From an uncultured Schlesneria sp. (GTDB lineage Bacteria > Planctomycetota > Planctomycetia > Planctomycetales > Planctomycetaceae): DNA of 64,000 nt. The DNA is taken from contig CAIULL010000284.1 in the NCBI GenBank assembly GCA_903899985.1, forward strand, positions 1-64,000, read 5' to 3'. Shown piece by piece: positions 9,877 through 27,232 of the stretch (position 1 is the stretch's first letter; each line of letters begins with the position of its first letter). Under the pieces are notes generated by a model. It saw only the letters and a program-made list of their open reading frames with translations, had not been told where the DNA came from and made no database searches. A program made the position numbers and the translations under genes.

Positions 9877-12800
9877 TTAAGCCTTCAGTTTTTCCTTTTC
9901 TTTTTGCTGTTCGGCCAAGGCTCGCTTGTAGTCGATTGGCATCACTTTTACGAAGCGTGGCAGTTCTTCATCCCAGTTTTGAAGGATTCCCTCCGCGACT
10001 GTTGATCCCGTATGTTTGTAATGCTTCGCGATCAATTCCTTCAGTTCTGAAATGTCGTGAGCACTTTCCATTTTTTCCAGCGCCACCATTTCCAGGTTGC
10101 AATTGGAAAGTAGCTGGCCACCTCGGTCGTAAACATACGCAATTCCGCCAGACATCCCCGCCGCAAAATTGCGACCCGTTGCTCCGAGAATGACGGCACG
10201 GCCACCGGTCATATATTCGCAACCGTGGTCTCCGACACCTTCGACAACGCAAGAGGCTCCGGAGTTTCGCACACAGAAACGTTCCGCAGCACGTCCACGG
10301 AAGAAGGCTTCCCCTTCTGTGGCGCCATACAGCGCGACGTTACCGATAATGATGTTTTCCTCGGGCTTAAACTTCGATGCGGCTGGCGGGTAGACGATGA
10401 TCCGACCGCCGCTGAGTCCCTTCCCGACGAAATCGTTCGCATCACCTTCCACTTCAATCGTGATCCCTGAAACCAGCCATCCCCCCAGCGTCTGGCCGGC
10501 GGAACCCTTGCAGCGGATGTGGATCGTGTTATCGGGCAATCCATGTTCGCCCCACTTCTTCGAAACTTCGTGACTGAGAATCGTTCCCAGGGCGCGATCG
10601 ATGTTCTGAACCTCAATATTCAGTCGAGTCGGCTTCTTATGCTGGATGGCATCCTGTGACTCTCGGATCAATTCATTATCAATCTGCAGTTCAATGCCAT
10701 GCTTCTGCTTGATGGTGCAGTAAGTCTGGACATTGGCATGCGGCTTGGTCGCTGGCGTCAGGATCTTTGTCAGATCCAGGTGTTTCAGCTTCCAGTGGTT
10801 GATCGAATTGTCGTATTCCAGGACTTCACTGTGACCGACCATCTCGTCAATCGTGCGGAAGCCAAGGGAAGCCATGATTTCCCGAGCTTCTTCCGCCACC
10901 ATGAACAGGTAATTGATGACGTGTTCCGGTTTTCCAGCGAACATCTTTCGAAGTTCAACATCTTGCGTCGCCACACCGACAGGACACGTATTCAAATGGC
11001 ACTTTCGCATCATGATGCAGCCGAGTGTGATCAGCGGCGCGGTTGCGAAACCGAATTCCTCGGCTCCCAGAAGGCAGGCGATGACAACGTCACGACCCGT
11101 CTTCAGTTGACCATCCGTTTCCAGGCGAACTCGGCTGCGCAAATCATTCAGCACCAGTGTCTGATGCGTTTCTGCGATTCCCAGTTCCCACGGCATCCCG
11201 GCATGCTTGATACTGGTCAGCGGTGACGCACCCGTCCCGCCCGAATCACCAGAGATCAGGATCTTGTCAGCATGTCCCTTGGCCACACCCGCCGCGACCG
11301 TACCGACACCCACTTCCGAAACCAGCTTCACGCTGATGCGTGCCGAGGGGTTCGAATTCTTCAGGTCGAAAATCAGTTGAGACAAATCTTCGATCGAGTA
11401 AATATCATGATGTGGTGGCGGACTGATCAGCCCAACACCGGGCGTCGAATGACGCGTCGCTGCGATGATCTTGTCGACCTTAAAGCCCGGAAGTTCCCCT
11501 CCTTCACCGGGCTTGGCACCCTGTGAAACCTTGATCTGAAGCTCGTCGGCATTCGTCAGATACCAGCTCGTCACACCAAATCGACCGGATGCGACCTGCT
11601 TAATGGCCGATCGTTTCGAATCGCCATTCGATTCCGGCTGGAATCGTTTGTAGTCTTCGCCCCCTTCACCGGTGTTGCTCTTGCCACCGATACGGTTCAT
11701 GGCGATTGCCAGGGTTTCGTGAGCTTCTGCCGAGATCGAACCGTAGCTCATGGCTCCCGTGCAGAAACGACGAACGATCGAAGCGACCGAATCGACTTCT
11801 TCCAGCGGAACAGGCGTCAGCCCCGTCTTGAATTTGAGCATCCCGCGCAAATGGCATTCGCGAGTCGTTTGCTCGTTCACCATCTTGGAGAATTCTTTAT
11901 AGGCGGCTTTATCTCCCTGTCGGGCGGCCTTCTGGATATTCGCGATATTGTGAGGATTCCAGGCATGCTTCTCGCCCGAGGATCTCCACGCGAACAGCCC
12001 AAAATTCGGCAGCACGGGAAGGTTGTTCTTGTCACGCGTCGGATATCCGATTTCATGACGTCGGAACGCCTCTTCACCGAGGATTTCAAAGCCGACGCCA
12101 CTGATGCGGCTGGCCGTCCCTCGGAAACATTTCTTCATGACTTCTTCGCTGATCCCGACCGCCTCGAAGATCTGGGCTCCCTTATAGCTGGCCAGGGTGG
12201 AAATCCCCATCTTTGCCATGACCTTGAGGATTCCCTGCTTGGTGGCTTTTCGGTAAGCGGCCGTGATTTGTTCGTGCGTCCATTCCCCTGCCAGTTCGCC
12301 GTCGTCCTGCAGCTGCCACAGGGCTTCGAAGGCCATATACGGATTGATTGCGTCGGCACCGTATCCCGTCAGCAGGCAGAAGTGATGCACCTCACGAGCT
12401 TCGCCGGTCTCGACGACGATCCCGATCCGCGTTCGTTCTTCATTACGAACAAGGTGATGATGAACCGCTCCGGTTGCCAGCAGTGCACTGACCGGTAATC
12501 GGTGTGCGCTGGCGAGTCGATCAGACAGAATGATCAGGCTGAATCCGTCGACGATCGCCTGCCGGGCTTCACCACAGATTCGGTCAAGTGCCCATTTCAG
12601 GCCTGCCGAACCCTGTGACTTCGGATAGGTGATATCGATCGTCTTGGTTTTCCAGTCGCGATAGTTCAAATGCTTGATCGCAGCCAGTTCCTCGTTGGTC
12701 AGGATCGGGTGCGGAATCGCCAGCCGATGACATTGTGCTTCGGTCGAGTCGAGCAGGTTCCCTTCAGGTCCGATGTAACATTCCAGCGACATGATGACTT

Positions 12801-24355: not shown

Positions 24356-24697
24356 TTTGGCTTTTCGCGAATTGAGGATGGGATTGATCCCGGTGTTTGT
24401 ATCGGACTCAGGACTCCAATTCCAGCCACGAGACGATGCTGGATCATCACGACGGAGAAGGACTGAATGCGTCTTGTCCCACGTTTTTCAATACCGGTTC
24501 AGCAAGTTCTGCCGGTTAAGGTTTTTCCCTTCGCTGGCAGTCAGCAGATTTTGCGTGAAGAGGTCAAATGTCAGGTTTTGACTCGTTTTCAGGTATTGTT
24601 CAACTGACGGATTAATAATTATAAGACGCGCGCTCAGGTGATCATATGGGCTCTTTTCCAGTCAACCAGTTTCGATCGCTGCAAAATCAGGAATGGA
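24356..24697. other. divergent intergenic region (esterase / sterol desaturase-like)
   Basis: It must contain both promoters. An AT-rich segment with TTAATAATTATAAGA at about 24610-24625 is a possible -10 region for the plus-strand gene, without a clear -35. No ORF or RNA was recognised. Confidence 0.3.
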
Positions 24698-25744
24698 ATG
24701 AGTGATTCGACATTCAAGTCGTTGTTGAGGTTTATGACCGCGAATATCGCTGTGGTGTTGCTCGGATTTCTCTTTTTTCCGACACATACCATGGCGGTGG
24801 GACAGTGCTATTCGACGGTGTTTGCCAATTTTGATCCAATCTATGTTCTGCAGCGGATCTCGTTACTCGCCGTTTGTCTCTTGATTGAGTGGCGGTTTGT
24901 CGGCTGGAAGGATTGTTCGCTCAGAAAACTTCTGTGGCCTTCTCGTTCGGCCATGCATGATCTCGTGATCGGCACAATCAATCTCTGCGGATTCGCGATC
25001 ATTCTGTTTCTATTTTTCACGGCGAACGTGATACCCGTATTACCCGCCAGCACACGCGAGTTGGTTGGGATCGAATGGACTTCTCGTACCGACAATCTGC
25101 CGTTGCAAATCGTATTCTGGTTTGTATTACGTGATTTTGTTCTCTACTGGTTTCATCGATTGTTACATGAGTTTGCGTTCGCGTGGGAAATTCACAAATA
25201 CCATCACTCCGCAACGGTGTTTACAATGTTGACAGCGAGCCGCGTGCACTTTCTTGAGCGAGCGCTCAGTCACGTATTCGTCACGCTTCCCCTGGTAATG
25301 CTGGGAATGCCTGGGGAACCCTTTCTCGCGATCACGATCCTTAATGATGCTTTGAGTCGATTTCGCCATTCGATGGTGAATTGGGGTTTTGGGTGGTTTG
25401 GCTGGATTGTGGTCTCGCCAATCGCTCACCGAATACATCATTCGTACCTTCCCGAACATTGGGACGTGAACTACGGAGATTCTCTGACGATCTGGGACCG
25501 ACTTTTCGGCACCTATTACGGCGGTGGCATCTTGAATTCAGAAGTTGGCGTGACCGACAATCTGATTGACAACGTCGATGTCATCAGCGGATTGCTGATT
25601 CCCTATGCAAAGGCGATCCAGCGTTTTGGCGATTCCCTCACGACGAATGAATGGTGGCAGACATCCCGCCGCCGACAAGAAGAGGTGAATGTCGAGATCA
25701 TTCAAGACGCTCACGACGATTCTGTTGCACGGCGAGCTGCTTGA
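24698..25744 (+). CDS. sterol desaturase / fatty acid hydroxylase superfamily membrane protein
   Basis: This is an integral membrane di-iron enzyme of the sterol desaturase superfamily, about 348 residues from the ATG at 24698 (GGAATGG upstream); an earlier in-frame codon at 24638 is possible. The eight-histidine clusters are visible: HRLLHE, HKYHH and, after more membrane segments, HRIHH. Four to five hydrophobic helices are apparent (for example FMTANIAVVLLGFLFF, IGTINLCGFAIILFLFF, FVTLPLVMLGMPG). Members insert oxygen into or desaturate sterols, fatty acids, alkylglycerols or carotenoids. The C-terminal about 40 residues are charged and cytoplasmic. The substrate cannot be told. Confidence 0.88.
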   Translation: MSDSTFKSLLRFMTANIAVVLLGFLFFPTHTMAVGQCYSTVFANFDPIYVLQRISLLAVCLLIEWRFVGWKDCSLRKLLWPSRSAMHDLVIGTINLCGFAIILFLFFTANVIPVLPASTRELVGIEWTSRTDNLPLQIVFWFVLRDFVLYWFHRLLHEFAFAWEIHKYHHSATVFTMLTASRVHFLERALSHVFVTLPLVMLGMPGEPFLAITILNDALSRFRHSMVNWGFGWFGWIVVSPIAHRIHHSYLPEHWDVNYGDSLTIWDRLFGTYYGGGILNSEVGVTDNLIDNVDVISGLLIPYAKAIQRFGDSLTTNEWWQTSRRRQEEVNVEIIQDAHDDSVARRAA

Positions 25745-25971
25745 GTACGAGGGAAGAATCCCTCGCGAAGTCTCCGAATGGTTTCGCTTTTTAAGCCAGA
25801 TTCGTAAGATTTCTCTCGCAGTCAGACTTTGAACAGTCAAGTTTATGACCGTTCGTGGGATGGATGAGGCCCGAAGATCAAACAACGTGAAAATGCGCGC
25901 GACGATGGCTCCGGACCGGGGATTGCCATGGGTTTGCGGCGTCGATCATTCTGAACCTTCGGGGATTACTG

Positions 25972-26901
25972 GTGTGCTTTCTCGCTGATGATGAAGCGTC
26001 TTTGGCTGCCGGTATGACCTCGATTGTCGCATCACTCGCTCAAGGAATTCTGAAAATGATGGTTTTAGAAAAGATGAAATACATTTCGATTTGCATCGTG
26101 TCTTTACTCACCGCGGGTGGGATTGCCTACGGCAAATTGCAGGATGAACCGGCTCGATTCAATCAAGGACTTCGGGGCAATATCGTTGAAGTCAAGGAGG
26201 GCAAACCTTTAACTGTCACAATCTCGCTGGATGAACAAGAAACGTGGCTGAATCTGGATGTTTCAGGTTCGGCAAAAGTATGGACGGCGTATGAGATTGG
26301 GCAGTTGTCCGATTTGAAGGAAGGGCAATACGTTTCATTGCGTTTAGCAGATGATTACCGCACTGTGAACGAGATTCACATCAAGGGAGACGTTCTGATC
26401 GGTGAGATCAAGTCGATGGCTCAATCGGGCAAATTGAGTTTTAATCCTTATGAAGATGATGAAGAAGCGAGTGATAAACTGACGGAAGTCGAACTCGCTC
26501 CAGACGCGATCTTGCGGATTGGCCTACTGCCTGCCGCACGCGAGGAATTTAAACCGGGGATGGAAGTCCAGCTTGAATTTGGTCGCGATGGAAAATTCGT
26601 TCATGCGATGACGGCATTTGCCGACGAGGATGCGATGTTCTATGGAGGACTTAGCGAGCTGAGCGCAGATTCCTCCAAGATTTCCATTGAACAACCGGGT
26701 GACGACGATGAGCCGTCCACGATTCGATCGTATAAAGTCACTCCTGAAACGATTGTGTGGCTGGACCTGAAGCCCGTTAAACTGGCCGACTTGAAAGCGG
26801 GTGCCTGGATCGTCGGGCGATTATCCGACGACGGAAATACCGTTCGGGCGATTAAAGCAGAGTCGCCGGAACCGGAAGATGACGATGATGACGACAAATA
26901 G
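25972..26901 (+). CDS. membrane-anchored protein that begins with an ECF sigma-factor tail
   Basis: The N-terminus, DDEASLAAGMTSIVASLAQG followed by ILKMMVLEKMKYISICIV and a single membrane helix, looks like the linker and C-terminal anchor of planctomycete ECF sigma factors (pattern AAGxxSxxVxxLxxGVLKxMxxxKLK plus helix). No sigma-2 or sigma-4 domain lies upstream; the frame is open only to about 25890. The rest (about 65-300) is a beta-rich acidic domain with repeated short segments (GNIVEVKEGKPLTVTI, GEIKSMAQSGKLSF), ending in Glu/Asp-rich DDDDDDDK. The start is GTG 25972, or more likely ATG 26056, which has AAGGA nine bases upstream. I infer that it descends from a decapitated sigma gene and now encodes a periplasmic domain of unknown function. 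Confidence 0.7.
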   Translation: MCFLADDEASLAAGMTSIVASLAQGILKMMVLEKMKYISICIVSLLTAGGIAYGKLQDEPARFNQGLRGNIVEVKEGKPLTVTISLDEQETWLNLDVSGSAKVWTAYEIGQLSDLKEGQYVSLRLADDYRTVNEIHIKGDVLIGEIKSMAQSGKLSFNPYEDDEEASDKLTEVELAPDAILRIGLLPAAREEFKPGMEVQLEFGRDGKFVHAMTAFADEDAMFYGGLSELSADSSKISIEQPGDDDEPSTIRSYKVTPETIVWLDLKPVKLADLKAGAWIVGRLSDDGNTVRAIKAESPEPEDDDDDDK

Positions 26902-26967: not shown

Positions 26968-26995
26968 GAGGCACCAGTTTGGAAACTGGTGCCTC
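26968..26995. terminator. bidirectional hairpin terminator
   Basis: A perfect 13-bp stem, GAGGCACCAGTTT paired with AAACTGGTGCCTC, encloses a GG loop. On the minus strand it is followed by TATTTTTCGTTT, so it should terminate the small gene ending at 27047. On the plus strand GTTTCTATTT follows, which could terminate the sigma-tail gene. Confidence 0.8.
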
Positions 26996-27046
26996 GTTTC
27001 TATTTCCGGACTTTATTTCGTCCGACCGATTCGTTAAACGCAATTT

Positions 27047-27232
27047 TCAATGGGACTTCTTGGAGGCCTTAGAAATCGCCTTCGCGACGATGTCAAATGC
27101 GTCAGCAGTCGGCAAAGCTGCCAGGACCTTGAATGCTTCGGAGAGGACTCGTTTCGTCTCAGCCACGCCGATTGAAGTCTTGTCCGTGTCAACCTTACGG
27201 GACACCTCGTTGTAAAAGTCATTCACATTCAT
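27047..27232 (-). CDS. small conserved-looking protein of unknown function (61 aa)
   Basis: This short acidic/basic helical protein has a regular heptad-like pattern (ETKRVLSEAFKVLAALPTAD, FDIVAKAISKASKK). It has its own intrinsic terminator (26968-26995) directly downstream, and codon usage resembles the neighbouring genes. It has no cysteines, signal peptide or membrane helix. I do not recognise the family. It may be a small regulator or structural protein. Confidence 0.6.
   Translation of the reverse strand: MNVNDFYNEVSRKVDTDKTSIGVAETKRVLSEAFKVLAALPTADAFDIVAKAISKASKKSH

Follow-up and report, generated by a model that had tools for sequence, protein, structure and literature searches.

The window, as we call the whole stretch of 64,000 nucleotides that was analysed (from the genome of an uncultured Schlesneria sp., here G000), contains an open frame at 25891-26901 on the forward strand, with an in-frame TGA directly upstream at 25888-25890. 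It is preceded on the same strand by the gene of a fatty acid hydroxylase family protein (24638-25744; Pfam PF04116, tblastn). Inside the frame lies a Shine-Dalgarno-like stretch, AAGGAATT (26042-26049, +), whose AAGGA core ends 9 nt before an in-frame ATG at 26056. From this ATG, which is followed by a second one at 26059, to the terminal TAG, the frame would encode a free tail protein of 281 aa (26056-26901, +), whose start is inferred. Behind the gene, at 26968-26998, an inverted repeat (GAGGCACCAGTTT...AAACTGGTGCCTC) is followed by T-rich sequence and is likely a terminator. Further downstream, a 61-aa open frame (MNVNDFYNEVSRKVDTDKTS...) occupies 27047-27232 on the reverse strand, and similar sequence is present behind the locus in two relatives, G004 and G005.

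No sigma domain is found in the window protein with Pfam and NCBIfam: Sigma-70 region 2, which binds core RNA polymerase and the -10 element, and Sigma-70 region 4, which binds the -35 element, are both absent. This bears out the preliminary description, which had seen neither region upstream. The reason becomes evident from a genome of the same genus, G001, whose contig C93 (L045:9566-11197) carries a 552-codon open frame for an intact ECF sigma factor of 544 aa, with Sigma70_r2 at residues 43-103 and Sigma70_r4_2 at 144-196 (Pfam), followed by the tail and beta domain of the window protein. The two genomes are collinear through the hydroxylase gene (86% amino acid identity), the intergenic region and the N-terminal leader, after which the alignment jumps into the tail. 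In an ungapped alignment, the former start codon and codon 2, ATG TCA in G001, read ACG TGA in the window (25885-25890, +), the ACG being at 25885-25887. The window frame begins at 25891 because this stop arose inside the old sigma leader. What follows, at 25891-25998 (+), is the N-terminal leader of the old sigma factor in decayed form. It corresponds to G001 residues 3-38 (alignment from L045:9566), an identity that is supported by a separate local match of window residues 1-39 in G001. At the deletion join (25998/25999, +), 206 codons are missing with respect to G001 (A39 to G244, 618 nt), and both sigma2 and sigma4 fall inside this gap. In the window, an ECF sigma factor gene has been stripped of its whole sigma head by a 618-nt in-frame deletion, and its original start has been lost as well. 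The earlier reading of the N-terminus as an ECF tail stands as regards the tail (ca. 72% amino acid identity to G001:C93 over its length), while the stretch upstream, which had been taken for the linker, is the leader that precedes sigma2.

Head and tail are found in one open frame in seven relatives (G001, G011, G046, G105, G139, G166 and G172) and on two contigs with a 125-base overlap in G008, and a Pirellulaceae record (L161) provides a further intact one-frame case. The check proposed in the preliminary description, namely that relatives should have a complete sigma gene ending in the same beta domain, was therefore passed. Identity of the window protein to the tails of intact G001, G046, G166 and G172 is 56-72% at the amino acid level, and 45-47% to those of G011, G139 and G105. 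At the profile level, the window tail and the tails behind intact sigma heads form one family (E 4.6e-162). Matches to the window protein are present in 10 of the 99 genomes searched (its own and relatives), and in 19 of 170 family genomes at 1e-6. Ten of these 19 match along the tail, two of them without a head (G000, the window genome, and G004), and the other nine, being only partial, were left unclassified. The long match is kept in only five of the 15 genomes of the genus (G000, G001, G004, G008 and G011). Fragments in G014 and G183 match only over 36-112 residues of the tail end, with identities that depend on the query (40-67% and 28-33%, respectively). With the window protein alone as query no relative was found in the named genome contigs, where an alignment-based scan gave 11 loci; a plasmid search returned no match.

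The second headless gene belongs to an independent genome, G004, and its join has the same length as that of the window. Together with the intact orthologue in the same gene neighbourhood of G001, this confirms the decapitation that had been inferred from the window alone. The G004 gene keeps its start ATG, with a shortened leader, and is adjoined by the same sulfatase and esterase genes as in the window; a hydroxylase gene of the G000/G001/G005 kind was not found beside it by tblastn. The headless protein of G004 also shows an in-frame insertion of 24 codons in its first barrel (L046, G004:C83, tail in 11748-12722). Since the window genome is a draft of 296 contigs, it could be argued that the head was merely lost in assembly; this we rejected as hardly credible, given the G004 join, the mutation of the old start codon and the synteny of both flanks.

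In G005 the loss of the gene is nearly total (L140, G005:C236, about 977-1030). Right after the stop codon of the hydroxylase gene, which also adjoins the locus in this genome, there is a scar of ca. 50 nt, from CAAGGAATT to ACATTTCG, in which the beginning of the tail is preserved together with its Shine-Dalgarno-like sequence and the ATG ATG, and then unrelated sequence. It was missed by the protein searches and found by a DNA pattern. An inverted repeat and T-rich element similar to that of the window was seen by eye behind the scar.

Concerning the number of deletion events, two type II topoisomerase genes yield the species tree ((G000,G001),G004),G005, with a support of 94 for G000 plus G001 and a short inner branch. 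The tail tree places G001 with G004 (support 83 for amino acids, 56 for nucleotides), and a G000 plus G004 clade is not rejected on the tail data (AU p 0.059 and 0.316). The equal-length join in G000 and G004 argues for a single deletion. A single ancestral event is nevertheless not settled, as the data also allow for two separate deletions at this site, for recombination while the species were young and for sorting of an old polymorphism.

To describe selection on the headless tails, omega was estimated with a codon model written for this analysis, on the species, deletion and tail trees. Headless branches display values of 0.30-0.37 against 0.08 for the others on the three trees (2dL 33-36), and their protein evolution is about 4 times faster. 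For G004 omega is below 1 on all three trees. For G000 the species and deletion trees also give a value below 1 (p about 1e-5), but the tail tree, the best tree for the tail, gives 0.67, which cannot be told apart from 1 (p 0.55). Had constraint dropped from the background level to none, a stop-free frame would be expected with a probability of ca. 0.017 for the 281 codons of G000 and ca. 0.19 for the tail of G004. In the alignment, both headless tails show length differences in multiples of 3. These data have to be weighed against the reading that the window gene is a dying pseudogene, in which the sigma factor became useless in the clade, the head was lost and the tail is open only as its decay is recent, the inner start being irrelevant here. 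The accelerated headless lineages, with an omega four times that of intact ones, the lost original start with its stop at codon 2, the near-complete disappearance of the gene in G005 and the few genomes of the genus that keep the long match all fit such decay, while the absence of stops, the conserved frame and the omega values below 1 (three trees for G004, two for G000) speak against it. We regard decay as a close rival, somewhat short of an even chance, and favour weak constraint on the window tail as an intact protein, with selection probably not absent.

The 281-aa product would start with two lysines, followed by a hydrophobic segment, three small beta-barrels and an acidic end. The hydrophobic segment, YISICIVSLLTAGGIAYG (26080-26133, +), is by its sequence a membrane anchor or signal peptide, and residues 3-29 are modelled as a helix with low confidence; AYG before KLQ could, we presume, be a signal peptidase site. 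An AlphaFold2 model of the last 280 residues (mean pLDDT 80.8, barrels mostly 80-93) predicts three tandem small barrels of OB type (26164-26874, +). The closest solved fold is CusF (Z 8.8, rmsd 2.4 over 67 aligned residues, 16% identity), followed by Rim1 (Z 8.7), other single-strand binding proteins and the cold-shock domains CSD7-9 of Unr. These predicted likenesses say little about function, the folds being small and common. The barrels resemble CusF-type and other OB barrels in the predicted fold of each one, and differ from CusF in the low identity, in the lack of any Pfam match to CusF_Ec in the window protein and in the tandem arrangement of three; only the G004 protein gives a CusF_Ec hit, of 13.6 bits, far below the curated cut-off of 27. 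Pfam names no known anti-sigma domain in the tail, and the model of the intact G001 protein (pLDDT 62.8) is too uncertain to judge contacts between head and tail. On these predictions, the remnant would be a protein of 281 aa that is exported or anchored in the membrane and has three barrels of OB type.

How such a remnant might be translated is suggested by the ATG at 26056, which is in frame and just before the membrane segment. At the same place the intact relatives read CAAGGAGTTCTGAAAATGATG or nearly so. The motif glycine is encoded by GGA in nine of the ten window-family members compared, and the tenth, G105, has a glutamate at this site and reads CAGGAGGTA (CAG GAG GTA).

The site is also conserved in ECF tails of the class at large, which were collected with a profile, A3, built from ten ECF tails. 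Its seed pattern fixed the amino acids and the ATG and left the glycine codon free; therefore the codon result described below is not built in, and the ATG count partly is. A3 matches are present in 42 of 118 class genomes and absent from the window genome at E 1e-5; the window family shares only the LxQG(V/I)LKxM..K(L/M)K core with the class tails. Ninety tails were taken from more than 150 listed, and one (L252) was dropped as a duplicate of L243, leaving 89. Three of them (L200, L207 and L253) have a head that is short, broken or truncated by the contig end. The suggestion that the tail module serves widely as a membrane anchor is correct in a sense, as this anchor type occurs on ECF factors across the class, but the other 86 of the 89 tails stand behind a head-length stretch. 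Three tailed loci deserve a mention of their own. L200 (G431:C1:4850450 region) is interrupted by one in-frame stop after sigma2 and before sigma4, and the tail frame beyond this stop is open; the gene may show another way of losing the head, or the sequence may be in error. In L207 (G417:C59) sigma2 is not in the same frame as sigma4 and the tail is truncated, so that it is probably a pseudogene. L149 (G006:C93) is a tailed ECF factor that ends in an SBP_bac_10 (DUF1559) domain and again shows the inner start (CAAGGAGTCTTGAAAGCAATG).

Of the 89 tails, 44 contain an exact 6-base match to part of AAGGAGGTG within the four-codon stretch, where 10.1 are expected from 300 synonymous shuffles that follow the codon usage of the gene concerned (sd 2.5, maximum 17); control internal Met codons of the same genes give 2 of 175, against 2.4 expected. 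GGA encodes the motif glycine in 55 of 72 cases (10.7 expected), and GAA the glutamate before it in 36 of 37 (13.5 expected). No other aligned column with at least 30 equal residues reaches the z values of these two (15.1 and 7.6, respectively), and the next two (z 5.6 and 5.4) are found in codons between the motif and the ATG. The end of 16S rRNA, GGATCACCTCCTTTC, an anti-Shine-Dalgarno able to pair with the motif, was found in 11 of the 13 genomes tried. A looser test based on duplex energy reached p <= 0.05 against synonymous shuffles in only 2 of 90 sites (mean -8.8 versus -7.7). It did not separate the sites singly because the amino acid motif is itself G-rich; as most of the pairing potential resides in the amino acids, exact Watson-Crick matches and codon choice were used instead. 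A stricter DNA motif was found in none of 199 genomes drawn from the phylum, which says nothing about the tails.

Since the tails are homologous and their amino acids alone give much Shine-Dalgarno potential, one may ask whether the conserved codons reflect nothing more than a protein motif (EGVLKAM) and an unusual codon choice kept by common descent, with no RNA signal. We find this improbable: synonymous choice is extreme only at the motif columns, and the excess persists when each of 18 genera is represented by a single tail (six-mers 9.4 versus 2.3 expected, GGA in 11.7 of 13.8 versus 2.6). Moreover, a glutamate replaces the glycine in 15 of the 89 tails, and most of these keep GGAG, as AAG GAG GTG, AGG GAG GTG or GGG GAG GTC, so that the RNA core is kept through the amino acid change.

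The stretch could, on the other hand, pause ribosomes instead of starting them. Internal Shine-Dalgarno-like stretches have been discussed as pause sites, and this one directly precedes the hydrophobic segment, where a pause would aid insertion of the membrane helix with no free tail being made from intact genes. Pausing requires no ATG. Yet an ATG is present at the expected codon in 83 of the 89 tails and near the expected place in 86, a count that loses some of its weight as the profile seeds all had the ATG. Furthermore, only three tails have no ATG, and in two of these the Shine-Dalgarno 4-mer is missing as well (Fisher p 0.002), and the codons around the ATG are shifted too. We therefore hold pausing to be an unlikely explanation, if less so than common descent. 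The presence of a conserved putative ribosome binding site and an in-frame start inside a larger ECF gene, the criterion for an inner translation start, is met at the level of sequence, and independent translation is inferred from it.

The explanation that we prefer is that planctomycete ECF tails would carry an old internal translation start, i.e. a Shine-Dalgarno and an in-frame ATG before the membrane segment. In intact genes, this start would yield the tail alone in addition to the full sigma-tail fusion, and the free tail might regulate, from the membrane, the sigma factor encoded by the same gene. In the window the sigma head is gone and the inner gene alone would be left, under selection that is weaker and probably not absent; the headless protein could still be made because the tails carry the internal start. 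The deletion, the join shared with G004, the disappearance of the old start, the change in evolutionary rate and the conservation of the inner start at the level of codons are observed. Use of this start by ribosomes, the making of a free tail and the tail's function are inferences, as no translation data are at hand. The tail as a free membrane protein, a possibility already raised in the preliminary description, is likewise inferred in both expression and function. It is favoured because the frame is open, the internal Shine-Dalgarno and ATG are kept and omega is below 1 on two of three trees, and disfavoured because selection is relaxed, the original start is lost and the gene is almost gone in G005. 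All in all, a decapitated ECF gene with an expressible OB-barrel tail, made by way of a conserved inner start, is the best explanation, with a probability of roughly two in three.

Regarding known systems, ECF57 and the C-terminal extensions of ECF factors are described in PMC8999054 and PMC8103513. The intact relatives are like the planctomycete ECF factors with such extensions (ECF57 with WD40 repeats, and others) in having a sigma2-sigma4 head, a linker, a membrane segment and a varied C-terminal domain. The window member differs in having no sigma domain, and the tails differ in their conserved, putative internal translation start, for which no earlier report in ECF genes was found in the open-access literature searched, so far as its text was available. 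Genes with an in-frame internal start are known from CRISPR-Cas, where small subunits are translated from within large genes. There, too, the C-terminal part is made alone from its own ribosome binding site, as we propose for the tail, the difference being that we did not find such a start reported for ECF sigma factors in the same literature. In PMC8999054, a sigma head and a membrane regulator are described in one chain, the sigma part being freed by proteolysis, as well as fused anti-sigma factors such as IutY. The tailed factors share the single chain of sigma head and membrane regulator; in those systems, as there described, proteolysis releases the sigma part, whereas here we propose that internal initiation gives rise to a free membrane part. 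Inhibition of the sigma factor by its tail is no more than a conjecture, made by analogy with fused anti-sigma factors of the IutY kind.

To our knowledge, large planctomycete ECF families often have no separate anti-sigma gene, and because this gene is often missing, how these families are held back is an open question. ECFs without a nearby regulator are remarked on in PMC8103513. It is an even call whether the tailed ECF genes of Planctomycetia are two-in-one genes that give both a fused and a free sensor, the latter possibly a built-in anti-sigma partner, with the window gene as a case in which the inner gene survives alone. If true, the free tail from the inner start would be a concrete regulator of ECF factors, and current gene models in the class would miss a second product in many sigma genes. 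The inner start would also explain why an expressible membrane protein can be left behind when a sigma gene is deprived of its head.
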